Shown here: positions 23,610 to 39,904 of the stretch, piece by piece
Position numbering within the stretch: the first letter of the stretch is position 1
Layout of the letters: each line of letters starts with the position of its first letter
Source of the DNA: Candidatus Nitrotoga sp. 1052
GTDB lineage: Bacteria > Pseudomonadota > Gammaproteobacteria > Burkholderiales > Gallionellaceae
Length of the DNA stretch: 42,225 nt
NCBI RefSeq assembly: GCF_927312905.1
Contig: NZ_CAKMHQ010000089.1
Span: 1 to 42,225, forward strand
Direction of reading: 5' to 3'
Notes under the pieces: generated by a model
Told to the model about the DNA's origin: nothing
What the model saw: only the letters and a program-made list of their open reading frames with translations
Databases searched by the model: none
Program-made: the position numbers and the translations under genes

Positions 23610-23675
23610 TTTATTTCCCTTTTTTTGACGGTCGGTCAACTAGACATTGTCATGCTTGAAGACCGACCGCTATTT

Positions 23676-23987
23676 TTATTTGAGCCGCATATCATTCTTG
23701 ACCGATTTCACTCCTTTGACGCCACGCGCAACCTCGGCCGCCTTATTGATATCAGCTTGGGAACTGACAAAACCGCTCAGTTGTACCTCACCCTTGAAGG
23801 TTTCGACGTTAATTTCGGCGGACTTCAGGGAGGGCTCATTCAAAACAGCCGCCTTGACCTTCGTGGTCAGAACGGTGTCGTCAATATATTCTCCTGTCCC
23901 TTCCTGCTTCGACGTAGATGCGCAACCCACAAAAAAAGCCAACAGGGCAGTCAGGAAAAAAGTGGAAAAACGTTTAAATTGTGTCAT
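23676..23987 (-). CDS. BON-domain lipoprotein (OsmY-like)
   Basis: A 103-aa protein with a lipoprotein signal ending FFLTALLAFFVGC, so Cys21 should be lipidated. The mature part is one BON domain: IDDTVLTTKVKAAVLNEPSL, INVETFKGEVQLSGFVSS and AAEVARGVKGVKSVKNDMRL. BON domains bind phospholipid surfaces, and OsmY/DolP-type proteins protect the outer membrane under osmotic or envelope stress. It lies between DUF3309 and DUF1328 genes on the same strand, with gaps of 166 and 66 bases. GGAGGGC precedes the start. Confidence 0.88.
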   Translation of the reverse strand: MTQFKRFSTFFLTALLAFFVGCASTSKQEGTGEYIDDTVLTTKVKAAVLNEPSLKSAEINVETFKGEVQLSGFVSSQADINKAAEVARGVKGVKSVKNDMRLK

Positions 23988-24153
23988 GGTAATGCCCTCC
24001 AGATAAATGATGAAGCTAAATTGCCTCTCGATGCTTGAACTAAAACAGAATCAAGAGTCTCGTGTCTGCAACCTTTCGTTGCGTGGTAAAACAAAAACTT
24101 GGATTTCGCTGCCCGCTGAGTAATCGCCAGAAGACGAAATTAGAGCAAATGCG

Positions 24154-24312
24154 CTATATTTTGCCCATTAGCAACAGAATGATCAGGATCAGCAATACCA
24201 GTCCAAGACCACCGCTGGGACCGTAACCCCAACCACGGCTGTGAGGCCAGCTTGGGATCGCACCGATCAGCAGCAGGATAACAATAATAAGCAAGATTGT
24301 TCCTAATGACAT
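24154..24312 (-). CDS. DUF3309 small membrane protein
   Basis: A 52-aa hydrophobic protein: MSLGTILLIIVILLLIGAIP, then SWPHSRGWGYGPSGGLGLVL, ending LLLMGKI. The P-x-WPxSxxWGYxPSGGLGLxL core is diagnostic for DUF3309. Two helices flank a short aromatic Gly-rich loop. ATG 24312 has AGGAGA in front; longer in-frame starts lack family homology. Genes of this type are often found beside stress-inducible envelope proteins, as here. Function unknown. Confidence 0.85.
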   Translation of the reverse strand: MSLGTILLIIVILLLIGAIPSWPHSRGWGYGPSGGLGLVLLILIILLLMGKI

Positions 24313-24852
24313 TTTATATCTCCTAATAATAAATCGTAGCAGCGTAACACCTGAGAAATCTAATCGCAGCACGACAATGTCGCTTTCATCGGCACGTTGG
24401 AACCAGCCTTCCAGCTGTTTCAAAAGCTGCCCCTTCGAGACAAGTCATTTACTAGACTACGCAGCAACCCCCGTTGATCTTGGCAGTCATAGTCATGCCC
24501 TTATTTGAAAGTATCGCTCAAACGAGGGCGGTCGTCTGTGCTCCACCGCACACAGAAAATCAATGCAAAGTAATATTTCAGAGCGGTTTATTCAACATTC
24601 TGGCTAGATATTCTGATCAATCTATTCGATGATTTACTATGTAAGTTCGCCTCAATCTTTGACTTGGTAGACCGATAAAAGGAATACGATAAGCCACACG
24701 GGCATAAAGTATGATTATAGATAGACAGCGTAATGGTAGGCTTTATCCAAGGTTGATGAGGAGATAAGTCTTCTACTGAAAACGATGCACAGACTAAACC
24801 ACCATTGAGTGTTGCACTGCGAAATTGAATCCACAGCGTGAAATCCGTAAAC
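24313..24852. other. 540-bp intergenic region upstream of dgkA-bcs operon
   Basis: It lies between divergent genes and must hold the promoters of the minus-strand DUF3309 gene and of the plus-strand dgkA-bcs operon. A TTGACT at about 24659 could be a -35 box but no well-spaced -10 follows. I found no clear operator palindrome or riboswitch. A minus-strand frame of 106 codons (24588-24908) looks like chance. Confidence 0.45.
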
Positions 24853-25230
24853 ATGTCAAATGAGAACCCCCACAAAGCTACCGGGCTACGCCGGTTGGTG
24901 AATGCCATGAGCTATTCCCTTTCTGGACTACTGCTTGCTTGGCAAGATGAGGCCGCCTTTCGCCAGGAAGTTATTCTCGCCATCGTTCTTGTGCCGGTGG
25001 CCTTCATGGTGCCAGTGGGTGTGACCCAGCGGGTGCTGCTGGTAGCTAGCGTCATGCTGGTGCTGGTGGTGGAAATGATCAACTCGGCCATTGAAGCCAC
25101 CGTGGATCGGGTATCCCTGGATATTCATCCATTGGCCAAGAAAGCAAAAGACATGGGCAGCGCTGCTGTTTTGTTGGCACTGACGAATGCCGTTCTGACT
25201 TGGACCATGATTCTCTGGTCCTTGGGGTAA
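24853..25230 (+). CDS. dgkA: Diacylglycerol kinase
   Basis: A 125-aa inner-membrane enzyme that phosphorylates diacylglycerol with ATP to phosphatidic acid. It has the usual three helices and the family signature VVEMINSAIEATVDRV followed by HPLAKKAKDMGSAAVLLAL, which contains the active-site Glu and Asn. The N-terminal amphipathic part has the conserved A(W)xxExAFRQE pattern (AWQDEAAFRQEV). ATG 24853 is preferred over GTG 24838. It ends eight bases before bcsE and so appears to be the first gene of the cellulose operon. DgkA recycles diacylglycerol left when head groups are taken from phospholipids, which fits the phosphoethanolamine transferase BcsG in the same operon. Confidence 0.93.
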   Translation: MSNENPHKATGLRRLVNAMSYSLSGLLLAWQDEAAFRQEVILAIVLVPVAFMVPVGVTQRVLLVASVMLVLVVEMINSAIEATVDRVSLDIHPLAKKAKDMGSAAVLLALTNAVLTWTMILWSLG

Positions 25231-25238
25231 AGATAAAT

Positions 25239-27044
25239 ATGCTCGGGCGATTCGTGTCTTTGATCATGCGCTCATTGCGCAGAGGCAATGTTCTGGTGGA
25301 TGCCACGATCAATCAGACTCGTCTGGGAGTGCTTGGTTTACCTGCTGATGTTGGCCTGTGCAGCGCCGGCTTGGCAAGTGTTCTGCTAGTGCGGGACGAG
25401 GCGCTAGGGCAGTGTTGCGCACTATCGTCAGCACGGAATTTTAGAAAGGCAGGGCCGCTGGCCATACTGGCATCGGGAGGGTCCGGCCAGAAATTTATGG
25501 ACCAGTTCGCCCGCAGTCTTGATAGCCCCGATGAATGCAGCCGCGGTGCACTTGTTTTTTTCCGTATTACCGATGATTGTGCCGAAACCATGGGGCGACT
25601 TGGCGCTAATCGTTTCTTTGATGAGATTGATGCTTGTGGTGTGACAGCACAACACGCTGTGCTGGTTCAGGAGGGTCAGGCGATCTTCGATTGGCAAAAC
25701 CATGATCTACTTATCAAACAGTGGCAGGCCTGGAAGACTTGGGCTACTAATCATCATGCTCCCATTCTCCTGATAATCGAGGATATTAACGGAGCTCATG
25801 GTTTTTTGTCATTACTGCGAATGTTGCCGGAACTTGTGCCCAACCTCGCAGTGCTGGACGCGGATTGCGGCGGTGGCTTGTTAACGGTTGAACGGTGGGC
25901 GGGGCAGGATAAGAGTGTAAATCGGCAATTCGGCCTGAAATTGTCCGCACAGGATAAATCTCTGCATTCAGATGGCTCTGAAATGAATGCTAGAGGGCAG
26001 GTGGTTCTTTATGCGCCTGACCAAGGGCGGGTCATAGCGACAGCCGCTATCGTGGCTGGGGTAAAGGGTGTGCCCGCAGAATGGACAGTGGTAAATAATC
26101 TGTCTGATATGGAAGCGGTCTGTAATAATGCGGTGGCCGCTACCATCCTGTTGCATGCGGATGGTGACCAAGAGTTTGAAACGCTATCGCGATTCGTCCA
26201 TCGCATGCGCCTGTCCCATCCACGTTCCCTAAAAATTATCGTGCGAGAGGTTGGCAATAAACTCCGTTACAACAATGAGTTGGTGCTCCTGCGTTTGGGG
26301 GTAAACTTGATGGTGCACAAGGAAACTCCATTCTCTCGCTTATTGCAGGTAATAAATGACATAGCTGCCCAGACCTTCAGTCGTCCGGTTGAGAATGAAT
26401 ATCTTCTTGCTGTGCAGGCCGCTGAGCCGAACCGGGTTGCCGGTTACCTATCGCCGTCCACCTTTTGTCGCGAAGTGGCAGCAATGCTCAAACGTTCCGA
26501 GCGTATCAATCTGGGCCATAGCCTGGTGCATCTTCCAATTCTTTCACGGGTAGCACAACTGGATGCTCTCCAGGCCTGCCAGGCACGAAGATTTGGCGAT
26601 ATCTTTACCGCCGATCAGAATAGTGTTTATCTGTTTTTGTTTGCTTGCCGGGAGTCTGATGTGGATTCGACGCTCGATCGGCTTTTTTCCGTGCCTGTGA
26701 CGGAACTGTTTTCTTCCCATATCATTGAGCCGACACCAGAGCTGATCTTGGAAACCGTAGGTCAGCTGCGGCGAGACAACGAAAGCTCGCCTATGTCCGA
26801 TTACTCGGCGATGCTGCAAGTCGGCCTGCCGATTCTGGAAGACAAAGTCGAGCGCCCGATTGCAACAACTGGCCTCCAGGAGGAGGTGGTGCAAATTTTC
26901 CCGCCTTCATCGACTGAAATCACTGAGCCCAAATTGACATGCCCCGTGGTCAAGCACCGGGCCATGCGGCCTTTCCCCCTACCTCGGCATGTAACGACTG
27001 ACATGCTTTCTACTTTTTCTGAACAAGCCCTCAATAATGCTTGA
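25239..27044 (+). CDS. bcsE: Cellulose biosynthesis protein BcsE (c-di-GMP-binding)
   Basis: A 601-aa cytoplasmic protein. The C-terminal GIL (GGDEF I-site-like) domain contains ARRFGDIFTADQNSVYLFLF, in which R451-F-G-D454 is the RxxD c-di-GMP-binding motif. E. coli BcsE has RxxD at the equivalent place. The middle part (LKIIVREVGNKLRYNNELVL, LLRLGVNLMVHKE) resembles the degenerate receiver-like domain, and the N-terminal half carries the scaffold region. A Pro-rich tail of about 60 residues follows. BcsE raises cellulose output by gathering c-di-GMP and the Bcs complex at the membrane. ATG 25239 starts eight bases behind dgkA. The end overlaps bcsF by eight bases. Confidence 0.88.
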   Translation: MLGRFVSLIMRSLRRGNVLVDATINQTRLGVLGLPADVGLCSAGLASVLLVRDEALGQCCALSSARNFRKAGPLAILASGGSGQKFMDQFARSLDSPDECSRGALVFFRITDDCAETMGRLGANRFFDEIDACGVTAQHAVLVQEGQAIFDWQNHDLLIKQWQAWKTWATNHHAPILLIIEDINGAHGFLSLLRMLPELVPNLAVLDADCGGGLLTVERWAGQDKSVNRQFGLKLSAQDKSLHSDGSEMNARGQVVLYAPDQGRVIATAAIVAGVKGVPAEWTVVNNLSDMEAVCNNAVAATILLHADGDQEFETLSRFVHRMRLSHPRSLKIIVREVGNKLRYNNELVLLRLGVNLMVHKETPFSRLLQVINDIAAQTFSRPVENEYLLAVQAAEPNRVAGYLSPSTFCREVAAMLKRSERINLGHSLVHLPILSRVAQLDALQACQARRFGDIFTADQNSVYLFLFACRESDVDSTLDRLFSVPVTELFSSHIIEPTPELILETVGQLRRDNESSPMSDYSAMLQVGLPILEDKVERPIATTGLQEEVVQIFPPSSTEITEPKLTCPVVKHRAMRPFPLPRHVTTDMLSTFSEQALNNA

Positions 27045-27207
27045 AAATTTCCTGTTATCCTTCCTTTCAGGCGCAGTGCTAGCTGTAATTGCCTATTATG
27101 TTCTGAAGTACCGGTTGCTACGACGCCTGTTCTTGCGTCGGCATTTGCGTTGCATAGTGCCCTATAAGCCTAGTCACACCGAACGGGTGCCTGGCTCAAG
27201 GGACTGA
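27037..27207 (+). CDS. bcsF: BcsF-like small membrane protein
   Basis: A 56-aa protein overlapping the end of bcsE by eight bases. One N-terminal membrane helix (FLLSFLSGAVLAVIAYYVLK) is followed by a strongly basic stretch (RLLRRLFLRRHLR) and a tail VPYKPSHTERV. E. coli BcsF is 63 aa, has one helix, and recruits BcsE to the membrane in class-II cellulose systems. Identity rests on position between bcsE and bcsQ, size and topology more than on sequence. Confidence 0.75.
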   Translation: MLENFLLSFLSGAVLAVIAYYVLKYRLLRRLFLRRHLRCIVPYKPSHTERVPGSRD

Positions 27208-27210
27208 CTC

Positions 27211-27984
27211 ATGTTCAAAATTGCCATTGTTTCAGCCGCAGGCGGTGTCGGTCGATCCACTCTGACGGCCAGCCTGGCCACTTTGCTTGCCCAGCGCGAA
27301 ATTGCGGTTCTGGCCCTGGACTTCGATCCCCAAAACCTATTATCCACTCTGCTCGGTAGTGATGAAGTTAGCTTAGGTGGACTGCTACCGGACTACCTGA
27401 CAAGGAAAGAATTTGGCAAGAGTGCGCTTGTCAATTCAAACGAAGTGGCTTGTTTGCCGTTTGGTCGGGCTAATGAAGCCAGCCTGGTTACTTTTGAGCA
27501 ACACCTGCGTACAGAACCCGAGTGGCTCAAGAAATGTATCGCTCAGATTGATTATCCGCCAGGGGCTTTTCTACTAATGGATACACCCCGTTTGCCTTCT
27601 CCCTATGCACGCCAGGCCATGGTTGCAGCAGACTTGGTGCTTGCTGTGCTGGCGCCAGATGTTCGCTCCTTGGCTCTGTTACCAGCGGTGGAAGCTGCGC
27701 TGTCCCGGTGCGCTCCAGGGCGTCAGTCCATCTATGTGATGAACGGTCTGGATAGTACCCGAGCACTTCAAAGCGATTTATTGGCACGATTCCGGTCGTC
27801 TCTGCAGATGCGGCTATCACCTTATCCCATTCATCGGGATGAGGCGATTCCACGTGCAGTCGCAAATCGGGCGAACTTACAGAGCTTAAGCCCGGACTCC
27901 CTAGTCGCCCATGATTTGAACGGCTTGCTCAACTGGCTGCTTGCTGGACCTGCAAGCAGCCTCGACGGAAGGGTGCAAGTTTGA
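27211..27984 (+). CDS. bcsQ: BcsQ, ParA/MinD-family ATPase
   Basis: A 257-aa SIMIBI-class ATPase that helps assemble and position the cellulose synthase at the membrane. The deviant P-loop is VSAAGGVGRSTLTASLA. It lacks both lysines of the standard KGGxGKT motif, and E. coli BcsQ is also deviant there. Switch regions are LALDFDPQNLL and FLLMDTPRLPSPYARQAM. The YhjQ-type C-terminus with YPIHRDEAIPRAVANRANL is present. It starts three bases behind bcsF and its stop shares one base with the bcsA ATG (TGATG), so translation of BcsQ and BcsA is coupled. BcsR, the usual small partner in E. coli, was not found. Confidence 0.92.
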   Translation: MFKIAIVSAAGGVGRSTLTASLATLLAQREIAVLALDFDPQNLLSTLLGSDEVSLGGLLPDYLTRKEFGKSALVNSNEVACLPFGRANEASLVTFEQHLRTEPEWLKKCIAQIDYPPGAFLLMDTPRLPSPYARQAMVAADLVLAVLAPDVRSLALLPAVEAALSRCAPGRQSIYVMNGLDSTRALQSDLLARFRSSLQMRLSPYPIHRDEAIPRAVANRANLQSLSPDSLVAHDLNGLLNWLLAGPASSLDGRVQV

Positions 27985-30548
27985 TGCGCTATTTTCTGCT
28001 CTGGGCCGCTCGTCATTTTGGTGTGTTTCGGCCGGACCAATCAAGTCTATGGCTGAAGCGACTGTTCTGGTTGCCGAAGGCTGATGAGTTGGCTGCATCG
28101 GCCCGACTGGAGGTTAGATCGCGCCCTGATCCGATGGGCTGGCTGGCTAAGGAACTGGGAGTGGTTGACAAGCGTAGCGTCTGGCAGTGGGTGCTGCATT
28201 TATTTATTTATCCTCCGGATCGAGCCGCACGCACTGAAACCTCTTTCTGGAGCACTTTTCTTGCCTTGTCGGTTCACACTATTGGCCTGCTGTTTTCCGC
28301 TGTGGTGTGGATTGTACTGGCAGGAGTTCGAGTCCTGCGCTGGCTTTGGCAGCGGCTGCTCTCATTCCTGCCGACAGTGGACCACGAGGCGGTTGGTCGC
28401 CGCTTGGAGGGCTGGCTGGAGGCGCCTTCTTTTCGCAAGCCTTTGCTACTCTGGTTGCTGGTTCTATCTTCAACATTCTTTTTCTGGCTGGTGGTCACCA
28501 CTCCCTTTACCTGGTTTGGGCAGTTTTTATTCCTTGTCTGCTTGTGGGGAACCGCGCTGTTCGTGCGGCGCATTCCCGGTAATCTGCCCGCTCTGATATT
28601 GATCGCCCTTTCAGTGCTGGCATCATGCCGCTACGGCTGGTGGCGATTGACCCAGACCATCCCGCTGGATTCCGGCTGGGAGACCTTTCTTGCCATCGGT
28701 TTGCTCCTTGCGGAGATATATACTTGGCTGGTTCTTCTGCTTGGCTACGTCCAGAATGCCTGGCCCCTCAAGCGGCACACCTTGAGCCTGCCAGCGGACA
28801 CCACCCTGTGGCCCAGTGTCGATGTATTCATTCCCACCTACAACGAGCCTCTCAAGGTGGTGGAGCCGACGGTTCTTGCTGCCAAGGGGATAGACTGGCC
28901 CAGAGATAAGCTCAATATTTATATCCTAGACGATGGGCGACGGGATGAATTCCGTCGCTTTGCCAAGGAAGCCGGGGTGGGTTACATCATTCGGCCCGAC
29001 AACGCCCATGCCAAGGCGGGCAATCTGAACCATGCACTAAAATTGACTAGCGGCGAGTACGTGGCCATTTTTGACTGCGATCACCTGCCCACTAACTCCT
29101 TTCTGCAGTCGACAATGGGCTGGTTTCTCAAGGACAAGCGTTGCGCCATGCTGCAGACGCCCCATCACTTTTTTTCCCCTGACACCTTCGAGCGCAACCT
29201 CGGCACTTTCCGCAAGGTTCCCAACGAGGGCGCCTTGTTCTATGGCTTGATCCAGGACGGCAACGATTTCTGGAATGCCACCTTTTTCTGTGGCTCTTGT
29301 GCGGTAATGCGTCGGGGGCCACTCGAAGAGGTAGGAGGGGTTGCCGTTGAAACGGTGACCGAAGATGCCCACACCGCCCTGAAACTCCACCGGCTCGGCT
29401 ACACTACTGCCTACATCAATATTCCTTTAGCAGCAGGGCTGGCTACCGAAAGCCTCTCAAGCCACATCGGCCAGCGTATCCGCTGGGCACGAGGCATGGC
29501 GCAGATTTTTAGAATCGACAATCCATTCTTGGGTAAGGGTTTGAGCTTCTTTCAGCGCATCTGTTACAGCAACGCGATGCTGCATTTCTTCTATGGAATT
29601 CCGCGCCTTATTTTTCTGACGGCCCCTTTGACCTATCTTTATTTCGAAGTCCACATCATCAGCGCGGCAGCCGCCATGCTCGCCCTCTACGTGCTGCCCC
29701 ACATGCTGCAGGCCAATCTGGCCAATGCACACATCCAGGGGCCGCATCGGCACTCGTTCTGGGCCGAGGTATATGAGTCGGTTTTGGCTTGGTACATCAT
29801 CCTGCCCACTGCCGTCGCCGTCTTTAATCCTGGGGCCGGAAAATTCAATGTCACGGCCAAAGGAGGCCTGATCGAGAACTCTTTCTTCGATTGGACCATT
29901 TCCAAACCGTATATCGTACTAGCTGTACTTAATATTGCCGGGTTGTCCATCGGCCTGGGGCGGCTTTTCTTCTGGAACACTTTTGAAATGGGAACAGTGT
30001 TGCTCAACCTGAGCTGGACAATCTACAACCTCCTGATATTAGGTGCAGCAATTGGCGTCGCCACTGAAGCCAGGCAAGTGCGAGTATCCCACCGGGTATC
30101 TGCTAACCTGTTGGTAGCATTGCATTTTATGGATGGGAGTACCAAGATGTGTCGCACCGAAGACTATTCCATGACTGGCCTTGGCCTGATGCTCGACCGG
30201 GAATTAGAGTTGCCGGTGAAAGAACGGGTTTGGGTTTCGCTTTGGAATGACGAGGTGGAATTCGCCTTTCCTGCAAGAGTAATTGCGAGTCATGGCAACA
30301 AGCTTGGAGTTCAGTTCGACAATCTGAGCATAGAGCAGGAAGCAAATCTGGTTCAGTGTACTTTTGCCCGGCCCGATGCCTGGAGCAATTGGTCGGACGA
30401 GCAGGGCGTGGATCGCCCGCTGCAAAGCCTGAAAGAAATAGCCACCTTTGGGTTCAAGGGTTACCGCAGTCTGTGGCGTAACCTGGGCAAGGGTTTGGCG
30501 AGGCAGCGTCAGTTGGTGCGGGGTTGGCTTGGGAGACAAATGATTTGA
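27984..30548 (+). CDS. bcsA: Cellulose synthase catalytic subunit BcsA
   Basis: An 854-aa inner-membrane glycosyltransferase (GT2) that polymerises UDP-glucose into cellulose and moves the chain through its own channel. Glycosyltransferase residues are visible: DDG (316-318), DCD (364-366), TED (459-461) and QRIRW (497-501). The active-site loops lie between four N-terminal helices (about 90-270) and four C-terminal helices (about 525-690). The PilZ domain carries RQVRVSHR (697-704) and DYSMTG (727-732), the two c-di-GMP contacts that relieve autoinhibition. The long N-terminus before the first helix is typical of the E. coli-type enzyme. Start ATG 27984 overlaps bcsQ. BcsB, its obligate partner, is encoded 7 kb away on the other strand. 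Confidence 0.96.
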   Translation: MRYFLLWAARHFGVFRPDQSSLWLKRLFWLPKADELAASARLEVRSRPDPMGWLAKELGVVDKRSVWQWVLHLFIYPPDRAARTETSFWSTFLALSVHTIGLLFSAVVWIVLAGVRVLRWLWQRLLSFLPTVDHEAVGRRLEGWLEAPSFRKPLLLWLLVLSSTFFFWLVVTTPFTWFGQFLFLVCLWGTALFVRRIPGNLPALILIALSVLASCRYGWWRLTQTIPLDSGWETFLAIGLLLAEIYTWLVLLLGYVQNAWPLKRHTLSLPADTTLWPSVDVFIPTYNEPLKVVEPTVLAAKGIDWPRDKLNIYILDDGRRDEFRRFAKEAGVGYIIRPDNAHAKAGNLNHALKLTSGEYVAIFDCDHLPTNSFLQSTMGWFLKDKRCAMLQTPHHFFSPDTFERNLGTFRKVPNEGALFYGLIQDGNDFWNATFFCGSCAVMRRGPLEEVGGVAVETVTEDAHTALKLHRLGYTTAYINIPLAAGLATESLSSHIGQRIRWARGMAQIFRIDNPFLGKGLSFFQRICYSNAMLHFFYGIPRLIFLTAPLTYLYFEVHIISAAAAMLALYVLPHMLQANLANAHIQGPHRHSFWAEVYESVLAWYIILPTAVAVFNPGAGKFNVTAKGGLIENSFFDWTISKPYIVLAVLNIAGLSIGLGRLFFWNTFEMGTVLLNLSWTIYNLLILGAAIGVATEARQVRVSHRVSANLLVALHFMDGSTKMCRTEDYSMTGLGLMLDRELELPVKERVWVSLWNDEVEFAFPARVIASHGNKLGVQFDNLSIEQEANLVQCTFARPDAWSNWSDEQGVDRPLQSLKEIATFGFKGYRSLWRNLGKGLARQRQLVRGWLGRQMI

Positions 30549-30588
30549 TGATTTCAGGCTGTATAAATTTCGGGAGTCGATAACAAAT

Positions 30589-32157
30589 ATGGGTTACTGG
30601 AGTATTTATTTTATTGCCAAACTGGGCCTGTTTTACAGCGGGTTTATTGGTTTTCACTGGCTACCAAACCTGATCTTCGCCGTTACGCTTGTACTGCCTC
30701 TGGCGTCTAACCGCCATCGCCTGATACGCACGGTTCTGGCGATGCCAGTAGGTCTAGCCCTGCTTTATCATGATTCCTGGCTGCCGCCGATTTCGCGCGT
30801 CCTTTCCCAGAAGGAAGCTCTGACAGGGTTCGGCAATGATTACCTGCTGGAGCTCCTGGGCCGCTTTGTGAATCTCTGGATACTTGCTGCTCTGGGACTT
30901 CTGTTGGTGGTTTATCTGCTGCTGCGTCGCCGTCTGCGTTTTGCCACACTGGCTTTTCTTGGCATCCTGAGCGCGCCTATTGTTAGCCTACAGGGTGGCA
31001 ATATCGTCCAGATTGTTTCTCCCCGTCCGGCGCTAGCGGGTGTAAGCGCCACTGTTTCGCCGGATAAGCAGGAGCCGACGGCCCAGCTAGAAGCCTTTTA
31101 CGCCGCCGAACAGGGCAAGCGGGTGAGCTTTCCATCTATTGCAGACTCTGCCGTGCCCTTTGATGTGGTGTTCCTGCATGTCTGTTCTCTTTCATGGGAC
31201 GACATGGACTACGTGGGCGAAAGCAACGTCACCCTGTTAAATCATTTTGATGTAGTGTTTCGTCGTTTTAATTCGGCCGCCAGTTACAGCGGTCCCGGTG
31301 CCTTACGCCTGTTTCGCAGTAATTGCGGCCAACTTTCGCACAGCAAGATGTATGAAGGGGATGCATCCCAGTGCAACCTGTTCCGCAATTTTGAGGCTGC
31401 TGGCTTCGAAGTGCGTGGCCTGCTCAATCATGACGGACACTTCGACCAGTTCGCAAGTCTGGTACAAGGATTATCTGGTATCGGGGTAAAGCTGGACGAC
31501 AATCGCTTCGCGCCCGTATCTATGCGAAGTTTTGACGACACCCCTATTTACGAGGATTTCCCGCTACTCTCGGAGTGGTGGAAGCACCAGCAGCCATCTG
31601 GCCGGCCACGAGCCTTGTACTACAACACCACTACCTTGCATGACGGAAACCGTATTCCTGGGGTAAAGTCGCGTTCTAGTCTGGAAACTTTCAAGCCGCG
31701 TCTGGATAAATTGATGTCGGATTTTGATCGCTTCATCACCTTTCTTGAGGACAGGGGGAGGCCGGTGGTAGTGATTCTGGTGCCAGAACATGGCGCTGCC
31801 TTGCGGGGAGACAAGGTGCAGATATCCGGTATGCGTGAAATTCCCAATCCCAAAATCACCCTGGTACCTGCCGCCATCAAGCTGATAGGCTTCAAAGGTA
31901 AGTCAGGGGATGCTCCACGCCAACCCTTGCAGGTGGTCAAGCCGGTTAGTTACTTTGCGATTAGCACGCTTCTTGCCGACTTTATCGCGGATAGCCCCTT
32001 TACCGGGACTGGCGGCAAACCTCTGGCGGAGCGGGTACAAAATCTGCTGGATACACCTTTCGTGAGCGAAAATGAGGATATCGTTGTAATGGGACGTGAG
32101 AACGGTTATCTGATGCGCTCGGAGGGCACCTGGGTCGATTATCAGCCTGGGTTGTGA
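30589..32157 (+). CDS. bcsG: Cellulose phosphoethanolamine transferase BcsG
   Basis: A 522-aa inner-membrane enzyme that transfers phosphoethanolamine from phospholipid to glucose units of the nascent cellulose. The N-terminal part has about four to five helices (LGLFYSGFIGFHWLPNLIFA; LLELLGRFVNLWILAALGLL). The periplasmic alkaline-phosphatase-fold domain contains FNSAASYSGPGALRLFRSNC, in which S234 of SYSGP is the likely nucleophile, and VVVILVPEHGAALRGDKVQI with metal-binding EHG. It starts 40 bases behind bcsA with GGGAG and is the last gene of the plus-strand operon. Its stop at 32155-32157 directly abuts the stop of bcsC on the other strand. Taking the head group from phosphatidylethanolamine would yield diacylglycerol, the DgkA substrate. 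Confidence 0.92.
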   Translation: MGYWSIYFIAKLGLFYSGFIGFHWLPNLIFAVTLVLPLASNRHRLIRTVLAMPVGLALLYHDSWLPPISRVLSQKEALTGFGNDYLLELLGRFVNLWILAALGLLLVVYLLLRRRLRFATLAFLGILSAPIVSLQGGNIVQIVSPRPALAGVSATVSPDKQEPTAQLEAFYAAEQGKRVSFPSIADSAVPFDVVFLHVCSLSWDDMDYVGESNVTLLNHFDVVFRRFNSAASYSGPGALRLFRSNCGQLSHSKMYEGDASQCNLFRNFEAAGFEVRGLLNHDGHFDQFASLVQGLSGIGVKLDDNRFAPVSMRSFDDTPIYEDFPLLSEWWKHQQPSGRPRALYYNTTTLHDGNRIPGVKSRSSLETFKPRLDKLMSDFDRFITFLEDRGRPVVVILVPEHGAALRGDKVQISGMREIPNPKITLVPAAIKLIGFKGKSGDAPRQPLQVVKPVSYFAISTLLADFIADSPFTGTGGKPLAERVQNLLDTPFVSENEDIVVMGRENGYLMRSEGTWVDYQPGL

Positions 32158-35100
32158 TCAGAAGCGGGAGTAGGGCCTAGCCGTTATCGGCGGGAAGCGC
32201 GCTGGTTCTGAATGAGCCTTAAACAAGTAGCGCAGGTATATAAAAGTTAAGTTTGGAGTATAGAAGGCTGTGCGATCCATGTTGTGATATCCACCAATGG
32301 CCAGGTTAGGCGTAACCTGGTATTCGGTTGCCAACCGCAGGGAATAGCCTTTTCCACCACCGTCCCCCCCGGGGTAAAATCCAGGGTCGATGCTATTGCC
32401 ACTATTGACAGCATCACTTTGCAAAGCGCTGTTTGTTGGGTAATAAGGCATACGTTTCTCATCGGTCCAGGCGAAGGAGGTTGAACCCCTCAGCAAATAG
32501 GAAAGCTTCCCGCTACGGCCTGCCCACTCTATCGGCAGGTTCACTGAAGTGTAGCTTTGCGGGCTGTAGTAACCGCCATGACCAAAAGTGTAGAAGGACT
32601 CGTTTTCCTTGTAGCGCCAGTGGGTCAGGGTTAGTCCCAGATTGACCCACATGTCTTCCCGGCGCAGCACGTCCTTGTCTATGCCGATGCGCAGGGCGAG
32701 ACGATTGTTATCGAGTACATTCTTGCCCCGCAATAGGCCATATTCGGCGCTGGCGAAGGTATTAAACTGACCAAAAGTGTGGGCAAGCCGACCGCCAACC
32801 CCGGTATAGGCTATCCCCCCCCAGATTTCACCTGTAGCGGGGTCGCGCGCGCCGGAATAGGAAAGCAGGCTGTTAGTTTGGGGGCGTCGGAAAATTTCAA
32901 GGGCGTAGTCCACTTTGTTTGCTTCCCAGCCTTTGCGAATGCCCCCGACCATATTCTGGACCGGAAAACCGATACCGATCATGCCCAAATCCCAGCGTAA
33001 TTCATCACCCTCATAGCCCATACCGACCGAGGTACCATCTACCTTTTGCGCAAATGGAGGAGGGAGAGAGGATGGCCTCACTCCCAACTTGCCAAAGAGA
33101 GGAGCATCGCCTGCGGCGAGCTCGCCAGCATCGACACTGACCCGGTCCATATGGATGAAGCCATGCCCGTCATAGCCTACCGGCCACCACCCGACCATTG
33201 GAGTCTCCGTTCCGTGATAGGTGGATGTGCCGTTTGAAGAGTTCCTGCTGAGCTTTTCGAACCCTATTTCAATGCGGGGATCTCGCCTGGCCTCAATACG
33301 GGTAATTTCCTCCTCTGCTCTGGTGGGGCGGCGAATTAAAGCTGTTTTCCCCAGCTCTGGTATGGACGGGACGAGGGGGATGTCGGTGCCCAGGTTTGTG
33401 ATGTCTTCGGTCATGAGCAGGCCATGCAAGTTGGATTCCGCTACAGATTTTGGTTTGTCAGCGGCACCTGCATTCTTACCTGCATCGGGCAACCCCAGGG
33501 AGTTGCCAAGTTGTAGTGCTAGGCCGATCAGCGGGCGCTCATGTTCTAGATTGAGGAGAGGCACTGAGTCAGCGGTCGTTGCAATGGTCGTTGCCACGCC
33601 CGGAGCACGCCTCTCCAGGGCCAGTGCTTGGCGGAAATAGGCCAGGGCAGCATGATACTGTCGGTCACTGTGTTCGATACGGCCTGCCTGGATTAGAATA
33701 TCCGGATTGCCGGGGTTGCTGGCGAGCAGATTTGCAATCATCTTTCTAGCTTGGGCTATATTTCCAAGGCGAACTTCCAGCCGGATAACGGATAGCCTGG
33801 TATCCACATCATTCTCACGCAAATGCGGTAGCAGCTGATCGATCGTCTCCTGAGCAGCCTGCTTTTCCCCTGCCTGGGCGTATGCCTGTGCGAGGTTTAA
33901 ACGTGACTCCAGGTCGTCCGGATGTTTATCCAGTATCGCCTTCAAGATCAGCAGGGCGGCTTTCGAGTCGTTAGCCTCCAGCAGCAGGCGAGCCTGGGCT
34001 TTCAGGGTCGAAATCTCGCCTGCTCGACCTGACACAGACGCCCGGGCGGCAAGGGTGCGAGCCTGAGCTTCTTCGCCTCGCTGCAGCAGATGCTCGATTT
34101 GCCGGGCAGTAAGGTCAGTTTCGATTGCCAGAATGGTCTCCCGTTGCTCGTCATTCCAGTCGGAGCGTTGCTGTAGTTCGGGCAGGAAAATGCTTAGTGT
34201 GTCATCCTGTTTGGCCCGATTGAGCAGCGATGCGTAATAGAGCTGGCTGCCGGCCGTTGCAGTTTTCGCGTCAATCAGGTGTCGCTTCATCAGGGCGAGG
34301 CCGCGAGCTGGTTGATCGATGGTAAACCAGCCTTCCGATACTTGTTCGATCGCACTCGGCTTGTCCGCGGCATGTCGTTCAGCAAGAAGCAGCATCTGGA
34401 CTGCTGTGTCCCTCTTGCCGCCAGCTTGGAACTTCTTGGCCTGACGGATGCGCAACTTGATCCAGGTGCGCGTTTCCAGTTCGTTCATGGCGCTGGAACG
34501 TGCCGACAGGGGGATGCGGGCCAAGCGCTGGAGCGCTTCTTCTTCTCGCTCTTGGGCAGTCAGCACCAAAGCATAGGCATAGTTCATGCCGGAGTCGTCC
34601 GGGGCCAGCGCAGCACCCTCTGCCATTACACGGCGACTGAGGGTCTGCAAGCCCAGGCTCTCATACAGATTTGCCAGATCATGGCGAATCCAGGCATCAC
34701 GAGGGGCGAGGAGTAAAGCGGTTTCCAATGCCAGCAGGGCATGGCTGGTGCGGTGAGCGCTGATGAATGCCTCGGCTTCATCCCGTAGCAGGCTGGCTTG
34801 GGTTTCGTTGAACCGGTTAGCTTCCTTGGGGTTTCTTTGGCGAAATTCGGCGATCAATGCTTGGGCTTCATCGCGTCGTTCGCTGCGGGAGAGAAGCGCA
34901 AGTAGGCCGCGCATAGCCGAAGCATTGCCCGCATCCCGTTTGAGAGCATCACGGTAGAGTGATTCGGCACCGGCCAGGTTCTGGCCACGGGCGAGAATAT
35001 TGCCCAGCAGGGCGAGCCCATCGGCATTGTTCGGTTCGATACTCAGTGCTTGCCGTGCAAACTGTTGCGCTTCAGCCAGCTTTCCGGCTTCGAGTAACGC

Positions 35101-36183
35101 ATCGGCCCGTTTCATTTGCCCCCAGAAATTTGCAGTGCGGATCAGGCCACGCCATTGGTTGCTGCCCGGTTCAACCCTGGCCGCACGCTGAAACCAGCTC
35201 TTAGCCTCTTCGTGACGCCCTTGGCGCAAGCGAAGCAAGCCGATGCTACCCAGCACTTTGGGATCCTTGGGGCGTTTTGATAGCGAGTTTTGCAGTTCAC
35301 GCTGGGCATCTTCCAGCTGTTCGTGTTCCAGAAAAGCGATCCCAGTTTGACGGGCACGTACCGCAGGGTCATTGGCGATGCGCAACGCTTTCTCATGCAA
35401 TTGTTGTAGTTCCGCCAGATATTCGATGGCATTCTGGTCATTAGGAAATTCTTTCAGATAGCGCAGGACCCAGGGCAAGGTTGCCGGTGCTGCCGCGAGA
35501 CGCTTTATGGCAGCCCACCAGTTTTCGCGTATTTTTTGTCGGTTAACGTCGGGCGCAGCGGCCAAGGATTCATAACCTTGCAGGATTTCCTGTTTGCTGC
35601 CCTGATTGCTCTGCAGCTTGAGCCAGGCAAGGCGGTAGCGTGCTTCCCCTGTTTCCCGGTAGAGCTTGTCGAGAGCGGATTTTGCCGTTTGCTGATCTGC
35701 GGCAGTGCTACTCACGAGTTGGTAATATTCGAGTCCGAGTTCACCTGGGGGGGGACCTTCCGGAAACAACCGGCGCATGATTCTGGCAGCTTCCTTGGCG
35801 TTGCCGGCTCTGGCCATCAGACGTGCGTTTGCCAGAGCCAGCTTCTCAGTGGTGTTAACCCGATACAGGCTGCGCAGACCCAGAGTCTTGGAGTGTTGAG
35901 GATAACGCTGTTCCAGGCGACGCAAATATTCACCGGCAAGTTTTATATTCCCCGTACGCAGTTCAATGCTTCCCAGCATAAACAGCACTTCCGGATTGGA
36001 TTCGATCGCCAGTAATTTTTCCAGCATGACACGTGCCAGATCCGGACGATCCTTGGCTTCCCACATGCGGGCGCTGCGCAGCAGGTCGGCACTAGCGCTA
36101 TTTTCTGGACTGGCAAGGGCTGGAGCACTCAACAACCCGGCCAGAGTCAGTGCGAAGGCAAGCGGGATGAGGCGGAGCTGCAT
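32158..36183 (-). CDS. bcsC: Cellulose export outer-membrane protein BcsC
   Basis: A 1341-aa export protein. The signal peptide (LIPLAFALTLAGLLSAPALA) is followed by a periplasmic superhelix of many TPR repeats (about 30-900; for example AEQFA-type units such as GSIGLLRLRQGRHEEAKSWF and NLAQAYAQAGEKQAAQETID). A C-terminal 16-strand-type barrel (about 1000-1341) has motifs such as DLGMIGIGFPVQNMVGGI and ends YLRYLFKAHS...YSRF with a terminal Phe. It is longer than E. coli BcsC (about 1157). ATG 36183 is used; the frame also has TTG at 36195. The start overlaps bcsZ by 37 bases. Together with BcsB it guides cellulose out of the periplasm and across the outer membrane. Confidence 0.93.
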   Translation of the reverse strand: MQLRLIPLAFALTLAGLLSAPALASPENSASADLLRSARMWEAKDRPDLARVMLEKLLAIESNPEVLFMLGSIELRTGNIKLAGEYLRRLEQRYPQHSKTLGLRSLYRVNTTEKLALANARLMARAGNAKEAARIMRRLFPEGPPPGELGLEYYQLVSSTAADQQTAKSALDKLYRETGEARYRLAWLKLQSNQGSKQEILQGYESLAAAPDVNRQKIRENWWAAIKRLAAAPATLPWVLRYLKEFPNDQNAIEYLAELQQLHEKALRIANDPAVRARQTGIAFLEHEQLEDAQRELQNSLSKRPKDPKVLGSIGLLRLRQGRHEEAKSWFQRAARVEPGSNQWRGLIRTANFWGQMKRADALLEAGKLAEAQQFARQALSIEPNNADGLALLGNILARGQNLAGAESLYRDALKRDAGNASAMRGLLALLSRSERRDEAQALIAEFRQRNPKEANRFNETQASLLRDEAEAFISAHRTSHALLALETALLLAPRDAWIRHDLANLYESLGLQTLSRRVMAEGAALAPDDSGMNYAYALVLTAQEREEEALQRLARIPLSARSSAMNELETRTWIKLRIRQAKKFQAGGKRDTAVQMLLLAERHAADKPSAIEQVSEGWFTIDQPARGLALMKRHLIDAKTATAGSQLYYASLLNRAKQDDTLSIFLPELQQRSDWNDEQRETILAIETDLTARQIEHLLQRGEEAQARTLAARASVSGRAGEISTLKAQARLLLEANDSKAALLILKAILDKHPDDLESRLNLAQAYAQAGEKQAAQETIDQLLPHLRENDVDTRLSVIRLEVRLGNIAQARKMIANLLASNPGNPDILIQAGRIEHSDRQYHAALAYFRQALALERRAPGVATTIATTADSVPLLNLEHERPLIGLALQLGNSLGLPDAGKNAGAADKPKSVAESNLHGLLMTEDITNLGTDIPLVPSIPELGKTALIRRPTRAEEEITRIEARRDPRIEIGFEKLSRNSSNGTSTYHGTETPMVGWWPVGYDGHGFIHMDRVSVDAGELAAGDAPLFGKLGVRPSSLPPPFAQKVDGTSVGMGYEGDELRWDLGMIGIGFPVQNMVGGIRKGWEANKVDYALEIFRRPQTNSLLSYSGARDPATGEIWGGIAYTGVGGRLAHTFGQFNTFASAEYGLLRGKNVLDNNRLALRIGIDKDVLRREDMWVNLGLTLTHWRYKENESFYTFGHGGYYSPQSYTSVNLPIEWAGRSGKLSYLLRGSTSFAWTDEKRMPYYPTNSALQSDAVNSGNSIDPGFYPGGDGGGKGYSLRLATEYQVTPNLAIGGYHNMDRTAFYTPNLTFIYLRYLFKAHSEPARFPPITARPYSRF

Positions 36184-37358
36184 GGTTTTTGCCAAGAGGG
36201 CAGCAGGCTGCCATTTTTCGTGAAATGGTAGCGCCCTTCCATCCAGCCATGGGCAAAGAGGGAAAGCGCCTGTTCATAGTAGGCGTCCGGCCGCGGTGGG
36301 CGAGCCGTCAGACGATCGAGTTGTCCCTGCAGGGCGGCGCTATCTTCCCGGGCGGCCAGGAAGGGTAGCAGTGCGGCGGAAAATCCTGATGGCCCTGGGC
36401 CATTGGCTTCACCCGTGATTATATTGACATACTCTGGCGGGTAGCCGTGGCGCGCGATAAAGCCAGCCATGGGAGCAAAAGCAGCAAGAAGTCTTGGTTG
36501 GGCAGGAGCTTCGGGCGCAAGCATGCCGGTCCACAGATAAACCCGGATGGCGTTATAGCCACCTGTGCCTTTTTCTTCTCCCGCACTATCCATTCGGAAT
36601 CCCCTGCTGTCCTGATAGATCGTCCAGTCAGGCGAGAATCCCCGTGGGGCGGATTCCAAGATGATTCGCAGGGAGGATTCCGAGATCCGCTGCCAAGTGG
36701 GATCTGGACTCCGGCTGCTTAGCCAGTCCATTAGCTGCATGGGCAGGTAGCTGGGATTGAGGCGCCAAGCCTTCTCTCCCACCTTGAAGCCGCGCGGTGC
36801 AGGTAGCAGGGTGGGACCTAGACCCGGCAGGTCTGCGGTTTCTTCGCGCAAAATACGGTTGGCCAGCAGCGATGAAAGCGCAACGAAGCGGCGGTCGCCC
36901 CAGAGCCGGCCCGCTTCTCCCAACGCATAGACCATCCACAGATCGGCATCCGATGCCGGATTTTTGTCCAGCACACCCCAGTTGCCATCATCTCTGCGAC
37001 CCCATAGCCAAGCTGGCAGATGGCTGGTCAGGTCACCATTTGCCAGATTGTTTTCGGTCCATTGCAGGATTTTGTCGAAGGTTTTGCGATCGTTGGCCAC
37101 CAAGGAGAAAAACAGCGCATAGGCCTGTCCTTCTGATACGGTCTGTTTGCGGGGGGTATTGCCATCCACTACTCGTCCGCCCTCACTAATGAATCCTGAC
37201 TTGAAGCTTTGCCAAGCAGGCCAGTCTTCCTGGCAAGTGGGTTCTGCTGTTATTGCTTGAGCAGCCCCCAAGCAGAAGCAGAGCGCAGCGAGAATTTGGC
37301 ATCCCCGGCACAGCAAAACGCCTGCCTTACGTATGGTACCCACGAATAAATATTTCAT
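36147..37358 (-). CDS. bcsZ: Periplasmic endo-glucanase BcsZ (GH8), catalytic Asp replaced by Asn
   Basis: A 403-aa GH8 cellulase of the cellulose-secretion complex. A signal peptide (ILAALCFCLGAAQA) precedes the (alpha/alpha)6 barrel. The proton donor is E76 in VSEGQAYALFFSL (E55 in E. coli). Substrate-cleft motifs LPAWLWGRRDDGNWGVLD, ASDADLWMVYALGEAGRLW, NPSYLP and APRGFSPDW are all present. The position of E. coli D243 (YDAIRVY) is N269 here (GGYNAIRVYLW, codon AAC at 36552-36554). This may alter or abolish hydrolysis, unless another residue serves as base, as proposed for some GH8 subgroups. The start at 37358 is 10 bases behind bcsB. The 3' end overlaps bcsC. Confidence 0.92.
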   Translation of the reverse strand: MKYLFVGTIRKAGVLLCRGCQILAALCFCLGAAQAITAEPTCQEDWPAWQSFKSGFISEGGRVVDGNTPRKQTVSEGQAYALFFSLVANDRKTFDKILQWTENNLANGDLTSHLPAWLWGRRDDGNWGVLDKNPASDADLWMVYALGEAGRLWGDRRFVALSSLLANRILREETADLPGLGPTLLPAPRGFKVGEKAWRLNPSYLPMQLMDWLSSRSPDPTWQRISESSLRIILESAPRGFSPDWTIYQDSRGFRMDSAGEEKGTGGYNAIRVYLWTGMLAPEAPAQPRLLAAFAPMAGFIARHGYPPEYVNIITGEANGPGPSGFSAALLPFLAAREDSAALQGQLDRLTARPPRPDAYYEQALSLFAHGWMEGRYHFTKNGSLLPSWQKPCSSASSRLPSH

Positions 37359-37368
37359 TTCCAGGTGC

Positions 37369-39651
37369 TTATTCCTTATGTTGGCCGAGTCGTCTGGCAG
37401 CCAGGCTACGTAGGGCACCAAAGGCAAGCAGCGCAACAAAAAGGCCGATTGCGATGCCGATAGCAGTCAGGAACAGAGGGTGGTGATACAGGTGGAACCA
37501 TATCCAGCGCCACCAGGGCAATTCGCCAACGTAATACACATTATTAACGCGGAAACTCTCGACACTTTCCCCACGCATCAAAGCGATGTCACCGCGGATG
37601 TATTGAACCTTCCCGCCATCACTCAGGGCGTCAAGAGCTGAGGTCAAAGCTGCGGGGGTATTGGCAGTAAGGGCCACGACACTTCGTGACGGGCTCAGCG
37701 GTGATTCAAAGCCGATGATGGCGGCCAAGGGTCCGGAGCCAAGAAATATGGTGCCTGCTCCGGATTTGACTGTTTTATTCTCACTCAGTCCGAACCATTC
37801 ATAAGCCATATCCATGGCTTTGCCTAAAGGCGTAAAGGTGCGGCTTCCTTCTTCCAGCAGGGCTGGAAGGGATTTACCCCAACTGGCGAGAAGATCCTTG
37901 TTGGCACCACTGGCAATCACCAGCAGATCTGAATCTTTTGCCTCCTGCACTGATTTTGTCAGTATGAGCTTGAAGCGCAGGGCGGGAACGCCGGTGGAAC
38001 GGCCCATGTGGCCCAGCAAAGCGAACATGGCTTCCATGTCAAAGGTATTGGGCCGATCGGGGATGACGATCGCGGTCTCGGCGAGGTCGGCGTACTTGGT
38101 GAACGGGAATCCGCTGTTAGCGAAAAATGCCAGGTTTGGCATCGCTGCGTAGTGGTAAAAGTGGCTCAGATCCAAGGTTGAATCCGGGTCGATTGCAGCG
38201 CGCATGTTTCCTTGTGGTGAAGATTTGCAGCGACCGTTGTCACTGGACGGAATGGAAAATGAAAACTGTAGCTGATTATTGCTGCCCAAGTGGAAAGCGG
38301 GGATTACCACTCCGCTTTGCTCGCGCAGGGAACCATCATCCAGAATAGGCAGTATCAAGCGGTTCTTTTCTCGGGTTCCCGTGCTGGACAGCAGGGGTAT
38401 GGCCTCGATAAATTGGTTGTTTATTTCGATTTTCAGGCTGGCATCACCTTGTTCCGCCGGTGGCGTGTAACGGTATTTGAGGTCAATCGGCACTCCCTTC
38501 ACTTCCCAGGTAAACAGATCGGCTGGCAAGCGGGCGTTGATAAGGATTGATTCGAGGGGCTGACCCTGGCGCTGTAGGTCGGCGGGGCTATTGATGAGTT
38601 GGCCCAATGGGATGGGGCGGCCTGACTGCAGCCAGTTGGGCGCATCGTAAGCGACACGGCGCGGTGGATATTCCAGTGTCTTGACGGCAATTGAAGTACC
38701 AGTCATGGCAGCCTTACCAAGAGCCAAGGCATCGGCGGCTAGCTGCAGGTCGGCAGCATTACGGCCAAGAATGAGAAGTAACTTGCCTGTTGGATTCTCC
38801 GGGTGTTGAACCAGAGAGATAGTCGGTGCGTCCACTTTGGGATATTTAGCAAGAAATTCAGGCCGTTCGTCATTGGTTGCGAAAACCACTCCATAGCGTT
38901 CAGGCAGACGATTCAAATAGGCCGGAAAGCGAGCACCGCGATAGCTTGCCAAAGCACCAAACCAGGAGGCGATACCGCCCGCCGCCCGCAGGGAATTCAG
39001 TGATGGCTTGGCGGAAAATATGAAAGGCAGATTAAGCAAGCGATTGTCTCGTTGATCGAAGAAGGGCGCTGGCAGCAGAGCAAGATCGTTGCGTAGAGCT
39101 ATTGATTGCAGATTTATTTCAAGCGTGCTCATGTTGCTAATGTTGGCCCACAAGCTGGAGTGGAGAGGAAATTCGCAATCATTGGTGTAATGGCCGATCA
39201 ACTGCAGGTGCAGTTTGTTAAAATCAGTGAAGAAACGTGGATCAAGATCAAGATCAAGTTTCTGTGGGCCAGCCAGACTTTCCTTGGTCACCGGCAGCGT
39301 GGCCAACACTTCATCGTTCAGGTAAACCTTGAGATGAGAGAGATTTGGTAACAGTGCGGGGGACAGCGTGTAGTTTAGGCGCAGCCTGGCCTTGGTGACG
39401 ACCTCGTCCAGCCGCACGCCCAAAGAAAGATAGGCGTTACCATCCACGCCCTTCAACTCGATTGGGCGGGAGGCGCCAATGTCCTTCATGGTTAGTACTG
39501 ACTGGCGGCTGGGAATTGGTGCGGCTTCTGCCTTTGGCAAGAGAAGTGGTGCATTTATTTGAGCGGCCCATGAAAGAGATGAAAAGCTTAAACAAAGAGC
39601 TGCGAACAGTACGAAATATTTGTTGAGGTTGGTAATCACAGAAACTTTCAT
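37369..39651 (-). CDS. bcsB: Cellulose synthase periplasmic subunit BcsB
   Basis: A 760-aa protein. A signal peptide (YFVLFAALCLSFSSLSWA) is followed by two tandem carbohydrate-binding plus flavodoxin-like modules, with ELKGVDGNAYLSLGVRLDEV, NDCEFPLHSSLWANISNMS and NGRCKSSPQGNMRAAIDPDS. The C-terminal anchor is LFLTAIGIAIGLFVALLAFG, preceded by PWWRWIWFHLYHHP. The anchor packs against BcsA and is needed for polymerisation; the periplasmic part guides the chain. ATG 39651 begins the signal peptide; an in-frame TTG at 39681 is possible. It heads a minus-strand operon bcsB-bcsZ-bcsC, separate from and convergent with bcsA, which is unusual. Confidence 0.94.
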   Translation of the reverse strand: MKVSVITNLNKYFVLFAALCLSFSSLSWAAQINAPLLLPKAEAAPIPSRQSVLTMKDIGASRPIELKGVDGNAYLSLGVRLDEVVTKARLRLNYTLSPALLPNLSHLKVYLNDEVLATLPVTKESLAGPQKLDLDLDPRFFTDFNKLHLQLIGHYTNDCEFPLHSSLWANISNMSTLEINLQSIALRNDLALLPAPFFDQRDNRLLNLPFIFSAKPSLNSLRAAGGIASWFGALASYRGARFPAYLNRLPERYGVVFATNDERPEFLAKYPKVDAPTISLVQHPENPTGKLLLILGRNAADLQLAADALALGKAAMTGTSIAVKTLEYPPRRVAYDAPNWLQSGRPIPLGQLINSPADLQRQGQPLESILINARLPADLFTWEVKGVPIDLKYRYTPPAEQGDASLKIEINNQFIEAIPLLSSTGTREKNRLILPILDDGSLREQSGVVIPAFHLGSNNQLQFSFSIPSSDNGRCKSSPQGNMRAAIDPDSTLDLSHFYHYAAMPNLAFFANSGFPFTKYADLAETAIVIPDRPNTFDMEAMFALLGHMGRSTGVPALRFKLILTKSVQEAKDSDLLVIASGANKDLLASWGKSLPALLEEGSRTFTPLGKAMDMAYEWFGLSENKTVKSGAGTIFLGSGPLAAIIGFESPLSPSRSVVALTANTPAALTSALDALSDGGKVQYIRGDIALMRGESVESFRVNNVYYVGELPWWRWIWFHLYHHPLFLTAIGIAIGLFVALLAFGALRSLAARRLGQHKE

Positions 39652-39904
39652 TTTTGATTTTTTGGTTTTATCTGATTTCAATTAATTGGCAGGGGATTCT
39701 ATTATCTTTTTTATCATTGGTTTTACCATTGCAATTCATTATTTCTAGTTTGAATTATCAGAGAAATGTAATCGGCACGATAAATGGATTAAGGCGGAGA
39801 ATTTCCTCCTGCTTGTCATTTAGTAATGCACAAGTTTGGTAGTTCAGTTCTCTTTTGCATTGAGATGAGAAGACAAAGCCGTGGCTATTTTCTAACTTCC
39901 TAAA
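39652..39904. promoter_or_regulatory. Presumed promoter region of bcsBZC
   Basis: A 253-bp AT-rich gap between the bcsB start and the IS3 relic. It must drive the minus-strand bcsB operon unless the relic altered it. A TTGCAA and a GATAAT are present on the minus strand but spaced too widely (22 bases) for a standard promoter. No operator was recognised. Confidence 0.35.

Follow-up and report, generated by a model that had tools for sequence, protein, structure and literature searches.

Why should a gene for diacylglycerol kinase stand at the head of a cellulose operon? The question is raised by a contig of Candidatus Nitrotoga sp. 1052 (NCBI RefSeq assembly GCF_927312905.1, contig NZ_CAKMHQ010000089.1, forward strand), the whole 42,225 nucleotides (nt) of which we refer to as the window. 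In it, dgkA directly precedes bcsE, bcsF, bcsQ, bcsA and bcsG, the last encoding a cellulose phosphoethanolamine transferase. Having compared this locus with its relatives and surveyed bcsG-bearing genomes, we consider it probable that dgkA heads the dgkA-bcsE-bcsF-bcsQ-bcsA-bcsG operon to recycle the diacylglycerol left by BcsG.

A diacylglycerol kinase gene opens the bcs gene run

The window corresponds to contig C89 of a 3.23 Mb genome (completeness 100, contamination 0.07) and carries the following features.

24725..24852, + strand: putative promoter region of the operon, a conserved stretch immediately 5' of dgkA, with no promoter motif identified
24853..25230, + strand: dgkA, diacylglycerol kinase, 125 amino acids (aa) (PF01219, E=9.1e-35)
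25239..27044, + strand: bcsE, c-di-GMP-binding cellulose accessory protein (PF10995, E=6.8e-96; TIGR03369 above cut-off)
27037..27207, + strand: probable bcsF, a 56-aa peptide placed between bcsE and bcsQ and kept in nine Nitrotoga-type loci
27211..27984, + strand: bcsQ, MinD/ParA-like ATPase (PF06564; TIGR03371 above cut-off)
27984..30548, + strand: bcsA, cellulose synthase catalytic subunit with PilZ domain (TIGR03030, 894 bits; NF008558; PilZ)
30589..32157, + strand: bcsG, cellulose phosphoethanolamine transferase (PF11658, E=3.7e-173; TIGR03368, 569.5 bits, cut-off 410.2)
32158..39681, - strand: bcsB, bcsZ and bcsC (order from the far end), convergent with bcsG (PF03170; Glyco_hydro_8/NF008305; BCSC_C)

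From dgkA to bcsG the genes share one strand and no gap exceeds 40 nt: 8 nt separate dgkA from bcsE, bcsE and the bcsF-like open reading frame (ORF) overlap by 8 nt, bcsQ begins 3 nt after bcsF, the bcsA ATG overlaps the bcsQ stop, and bcsG follows bcsA after 40 nt. An earlier note on this DNA had described both the one-strand run and the 8-nt junction, and we confirm its order and coordinates. Because the 56-aa ORF has no Pfam match, the name bcsF is based on position, size and conservation. With bcsA, B, Z, C, Q, E and G all together, the cluster is E. coli-like in content, its layout being unlike that of K-12.

The kinase is a full-length member of the DgkA family (119 bits against a PF01219 cut-off of 22.3, covering profile positions 2-102 of 102) and aligns with solved DgkA chains over 118 residues (6-123 of 125). 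In this alignment, the motifs VVE..NSAIEA..DR and AKD.GSAAVL are kept, and the VVE..NSAIEA..DR and AKD motifs are presumably catalytic. Family membership and motifs together identify the product as a predicted diacylglycerol kinase. Some DgkA relatives of Gram-positive bacteria are undecaprenol kinases, and the enzyme might likewise act on another lipid, undecaprenol for example, in the service of an unrelated envelope pathway. We regard this as highly improbable, given that almost the entire protein can be aligned with solved DgkA and that we know of no use of undecaprenol in cellulose synthesis. Alignment of the transferase to solved BcsG revealed that CSLSW with its Cys, SYSGP (residue 232 on) with its nucleophile Ser, LHDGN and PEHG are kept, a set that covers the nucleophile and the presumed metal-site motifs. 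The nucleophile of the E. coli enzyme is Ser278, according to the accessible text of PMC11379886.

The dgkA-bcsE junction is conserved in Nitrotoga

The closest loci, found in Candidatus Nitrotoga and in two metagenome-assembled genomes titled Nitrosomonadales and Betaproteobacteria, encode BcsG proteins 82-88% identical to that of the window. In 9/9 of these loci dgkA is placed directly before bcsE, eight times intact and once decayed. Among the 13 genomes of the Nitrotoga genus with a bcsG match, 11 have dgkA 5.3-5.5 kb upstream of bcsG on the same strand; the two exceptions are G001, with a decayed dgkA at the site, and G016, which has a bcsG fragment of 40 residues only and its dgkA on another contig. 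Counting the window, dgkA is intact in ten Nitrotoga-type sequences; it is 125 aa long in each, and the gap to bcsE is 8 nt in nine of them and 7 nt in one. The median dN/dS of 0.14, calculated from the 45 pairs among these 10 dgkA genes, several of which are near-identical, indicates that Nitrotoga dgkA is subject to purifying selection.

Using the 400 nt and the 2 kb before dgkA as blastn queries, we found that similarity between Nitrotoga loci is almost confined to the last ~50-130 nt. The 400-nt query yielded a match in seven of ten Nitrotoga loci and none in three, with one additional match of 26 nt; on the opposite side of the cassette, similarity extends up to ~290 nt beyond bcsB in five of the ten. 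The short reach of the upstream similarity puts the left edge of the cassette just before dgkA, as expected if the operon promoter sits there, and the conserved stretch at 24725..24852 is the probable promoter region. A consensus promoter/terminator scan listed no site between dgkA and bcsE, a result of little weight because the scan found no more sites than in shuffled sequences. The earlier note had named a promoter or terminator between the two genes as an argument against a common operon. With a junction of 7-8 nt in all ten sequences and upstream similarity that begins just before dgkA, there is no sign of such a break, and dgkA is predicted to be co-transcribed with bcsE-bcsG.

dgkA is linked to bcsG-type but not to other cellulose clusters

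Is this arrangement a peculiarity of Nitrotoga? BcsG (PF11658) was sought in relatives of the window's organism, in the order, in the class and in one family, giving 143 genomes above the family cut-off, all of which were searched for PF01219; the class-wide part matched in only 5 of 369 genomes, the window's own included. As controls, we used 54 genomes from 20 genera having BcsB above cut-off and no BcsG. Linkage was defined as a dgkA no more than 20 kb from bcsG or bcsB, and in the controls from bcsB only. We removed three genomes with bcsG below the family cut-off (G238, G328, G1028), eleven potential controls with weak partial BcsB (G369, G133, G171, G172, G204, G869, G894, G915, G918, G996, G1017) and one whose bcsB place was missing from the list (G1023), while retaining among the 143 several incomplete or broken cases (G016 with its 40 residues, G072, G155, G344, G861, G933, G952). 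Split contigs can conceal linkage, G016 and G072 being among such cases. Linkage was judged against listed bcsB places, which one table gives down to 649 bits; testing 108 additional listed places added no genome to those reported below. Genus assignments were read from the result tables, and the p values ignore phylogeny.

A dgkA near bcs was found in 36 of the 143 bcsG-bearing genomes and in none of the 54 controls (Fisher p=4.7e-6), which bears out the enrichment beside bcsG expected by the earlier note. Counted by genus, linkage occurs in 7/29 bcsG-bearing and 0/20 bcsG-less genera (two-sided p=0.032), namely in g1 (Nitrotoga, 11/13), g5 (1/1), g45 (7/7), g133 (3/12), g152 (1/1), g455 (7/7) and g91 (6/7). 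Within g91, which contains both types of genome, six of seven bcsG-bearing but 0/18 bcsG-less members exhibit linkage (p=4e-5). The contrast is not a matter of possessing the gene, as dgkA occurs somewhere in 142/143 bcsG-bearing and 49/54 bcsG-less genomes. Where a genome has at least two dgkA copies, one of them resides at bcs in 25 of 27 bcsG-bearing genomes (the exceptions being G072 and G934) vs none of 14 controls (Fisher 3e-9). Furthermore, 18 genomes combine a bcsG-linked bcsB with a further listed bcsB elsewhere; in nine of them dgkA is at the bcsG-type cluster, in none at the other, and in nine at neither.

Chance placement was rejected, since a uniform distribution would give ~2.2 linked genomes and 0.62 genera (genome sizes rounded) vs the 36 and 7 observed. 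An association of dgkA with cellulose clusters of any kind was ruled out by the 0/54 result. Outside the genome survey, five of 39 plasmid records with bcsG were examined; in three of these, all Caballeronia plasmids, a gene annotated 'diacylglycerol kinase' adjoins bcsB of a bcsBZC-bcsE-x-bcsQ-bcsA-bcsG block, an annotation already present in public records.

Layouts and origins of bcs-located dgkA differ

The position of dgkA within the cluster varies between lineages. In G349 the order is dgkA-bcsQ-A-B-Z-C with bcsG-bcsE on the opposite strand, and in G022 all genes are on one strand in the order bcsQ-like-A-B-Z-C-x-GMC oxidoreductase-dgkA-bcsG, dgkA being ~0.5 kb from bcsG. In g45, for which three genomes were read (L064 12754-18631, L065, L066; Pfam on L064 only), HD/GAF and GGDEF genes are followed by a divergent dgkA, a gene for an unknown 230-aa protein, a PilZ-containing bcsA and bcsC, with bcsZ-bcsG on the opposite strand. 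The closer proximity of dgkA to bcsQ or bcsA than to bcsG in G349 and g45 would suit the idea that phosphatidic acid itself matters, as a local anionic lipid aiding assembly or work of the cellulose synthase complex. Against it, none of the 54 sampled genomes that have bcsB without bcsG has dgkA near a listed bcsB, and we consider this explanation very unlikely.

A DgkA tree of 67 sequences, 21 of them bcs-located, requires at least 10 changes of the bcs label, at least 4 of which are forced by well-supported branches; the alignment has only 118 columns, which leaves the deep forks poorly supported and lets long branches come together. A single ancestral bcs-dgkA was rejected, as a single origin appeared in 0/200 bootstrap trees and the bcs-located DgkAs fall into more than one clade. 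The bcs-located DgkA of G349 pairs with the second copy of that genome (99/94), revealing a local duplication, whereas in g133, g455 and g91 the bcs-located copy belongs to one paralogue clade (99/92).

Two sets of neighbouring genes were recorded alongside these comparisons. At L021 13527-15679, a GMC oxidoreductase and a small partner gene lie between bcsC and the dgkA-bcsG pair of a cellulose cluster, and an oxidative modification of the polymer is possible. In the window, small envelope-type genes (DUF1328, BON domain, DUF3309) are found left of dgkA on the - strand (23445-24423), and transposase/integrase-core pieces (rve, rve_3) at 39905-40821, just beyond the bcsB end of the cassette. 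Rfam returned nothing above gathering scores in the window.

Exceptions and the passenger alternative

Several observations weigh against a dedicated role of dgkA in cellulose decoration. Significance at the genus level is modest, and 22 of the 29 sampled bcsG-bearing genera have no dgkA found near bcs: g106 (17 genomes), g121 (23), g142 (28), g11 (1), g15 (1) and 25 more genomes in 17 genera. No dgkA occurs in the examined stretches of the Pseudoalteromonas and Catenovulum bcsG plasmids, within 10 kb of three gammaproteobacterial loci from the close-locus search, or at bcs in E. coli K-12. All 16 bcs-located dgkA genes of g133, g455 and g91 are divergent from bcsB and outside the operon. In g91, the dgkA paralogue seen at bcs is also kept by bcsG-less genomes, at unrelated sites (seven loci compared, L078-L084), and the bcsG-bearing G934 has it away from bcs (L085); the paralogue alone at unrelated sites in bcsG-less genomes implies that it also has other uses. 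We rejected the possibility that these solitary copies are leftovers at a former bcs site, as no flank outside dgkA is shared (blastn E 1e-10). One bcsG-bearing genome, G039 (bcsG at contig C6 310379-312025), lacks a PF01219 match and has either another diacylglycerol kinase or none. In Nitrotoga sp. BS (G001), the dgkA before bcsE is broken across more than one reading frame (L004 4352-4638), bcsE to bcsG matching at full length beside it; a second dgkA, 78% identical to that of the window, is intact elsewhere (L015 144-548). Finally, bcsG was not matched in six genomes of the Nitrotoga genus; four of these have one dgkA (G004, G005, G011, G012), and none was found in the other two, G002 and G010, which are 72% and 83% complete.

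Some of these observations would be expected if a single housekeeping dgkA had landed before bcsE and were merely read from that promoter, with no special bearing on cellulose. The presence of one dgkA in bcsG-less Nitrotoga and the many unlinked genera fit such a passenger, as does the window's own genome, where PF01219 matches once and the dgkA at bcs is the sole copy detected. A passenger is difficult to reconcile, however, with linkage in seven genera, in differing layouts and with at least four forced changes in the tree, together with its absence from the bcsG-less controls, or with the choice of the bcs site by one copy in nearly all bcsG-bearing genomes that have several. We therefore judge the passenger explanation to be unlikely, yet the most serious of the alternatives considered. 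Because of the exceptions and because DgkA is encoded in 142 of the 143 bcsG-bearing genomes, the placement of dgkA at bcs is perhaps helpful rather than essential, given some DgkA in the cell.

A proposed cycle for the lipid by-product of BcsG

In the recycling scheme that we favour, BcsG, working at the periplasmic face of the inner membrane, would move phosphoethanolamine from phosphatidylethanolamine onto nascent cellulose, each transfer leaving one diacylglycerol. The diacylglycerol would cross the membrane, where DgkA would use ATP to produce phosphatidic acid, which the normal pathway would return to phosphatidylethanolamine. Having dgkA within the operon would match kinase supply to the decoration rate and prevent a build-up of diacylglycerol. 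The cellulose case is argued from analogy and from the survey, and we infer both the flux through this cycle and its benefit.

The earlier note had made its interpretation conditional on BcsG using phosphatidylethanolamine, and this is independently stated as the thought mechanism: in the accessible text of PMC11379886, BcsG is assumed to attack phosphatidylethanolamine, release diacylglycerol and then transfer phosphoethanolamine to glucose O6. The scheme given there ends at the released diacylglycerol, and the main text, as far as it is accessible, does not mention dgkA. How strongly this lipid can accumulate is illustrated by E. coli dgkA mutants, in which diacylglycerol rises ~20-fold, one third of it unexplained by membrane-derived oligosaccharides (PMC8027125, accessible part). 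The recycling interpretation of the earlier note is supported, and a second dgkA, which it had named among the possible refutations, was not found in this genome. Being the only dgkA found, the gene has to handle diacylglycerol of any other origin as well and is probably not for cellulose alone.

Relation to known kinase-transferase modules

DgkA has been given a recycling role for EptA and MCR enzymes (accessible parts of PMC12064563, PMC10285318 and PMC7559476). In the Vibrio Harveyi clade, as in the window, dgkA accompanies the gene for a phosphoethanolamine transferase whose reaction leaves diacylglycerol, and the phenotype appears in E. coli only when this dgkA-eptA operon is co-expressed; unlike the window, the acceptor is lipid A instead of cellulose, the transferase is of the EptA family instead of BcsG (PF11658), and the operon is RstAB-controlled (PMC12064563, accessible part). 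Similarly, mcr-3 and mcr-8 stand beside dgkA and mcr-7 beside pap2 and dgkA, the accessory dgkA being read as diacylglycerol recycling, whereas these are mobile lipid A genes for which the accessible parts of PMC10285318 and PMC7559476 describe no cellulose genes. The membrane-derived oligosaccharide system resembles our proposal in that DgkA salvages the diacylglycerol that remains once a head group has been passed to a periplasmic glucan, and differs in transferring glycerol phosphate from phosphatidylglycerol (PMC8027125, accessible part); in E. coli K-12, dgkA and opgB are far apart. The E. coli bcsEFG and bcsRQABZC operons share with the window the combination of bcsE, F and G with bcsQ, A, B, Z and C. 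In K-12, unlike the window, dgkA is located between plsB and lexA, the bcs operons are divergent, and bcsQA lies outside the bcsG operon.

The window's transferase matches PF11658 only and not the EptA-family profile PF08019, and dgkA and bcsG are the first and last of six tightly packed same-strand genes, the single run characteristic of eptA/mcr-type modules. With BcsG in the place of the EptA family, the module would work like the eptA pair without being a member of that group. A run on one strand in the bcsG-less Nitrotoga genome G005 (L017 3610-6408) comprises genes for an EptA-family phosphoethanolamine transferase and a PAP2 phosphatase together with dgkA, and by analogy it would follow the same logic with a different transferase.

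The earlier note knew of no description of dgkA as a functional part of a bcs operon, and in the literature searched, which covered papers outside subscription, we likewise found none of dgkA with bcsG or as part of a cellulose operon. The principle is already known from dgkA-eptA and mcr-dgkA pairs: the window holds a module of dgkA and a phosphoethanolamine transferase in which BcsG takes the transferase's place.

Implications for lipid-derived glycan decoration

A wider and distinctly more tentative idea is that dgkA, wherever it occurs within a polysaccharide cluster, is a genomic marker of head-group-derived decoration, diacylglycerol recycling having been repeatedly recruited to such glycans. 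If so, head-group-derived decoration would be predicted for YjbH-type exopolysaccharide loci with their own distinct dgkA (L022, L071, L087, L089) and for the CesA-like cluster of g45, where dgkA lies between diguanylate-cyclase and synthase genes. At L071 1643-6698, and also at L022, L087 and L089, a dgkA of a distinct clade lies beside a large gene, which is YjbH-like in L071; in L071, the only one of these run through Pfam, a C-terminal PAP2 domain is fused to YjbH.

That several lineages have recruited the kinase to their bcsG-type clusters suggests that making this matrix polymer carries a real cost in the form of its lipid by-product. The cost is directly testable in E. coli, and dgkA may serve as a marker by which further glycan decorations of lipid origin can be found. 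For the nitrite-oxidising Nitrotoga, the locus now places the genes of the phosphoethanolamine-cellulose pathway in these bacteria.

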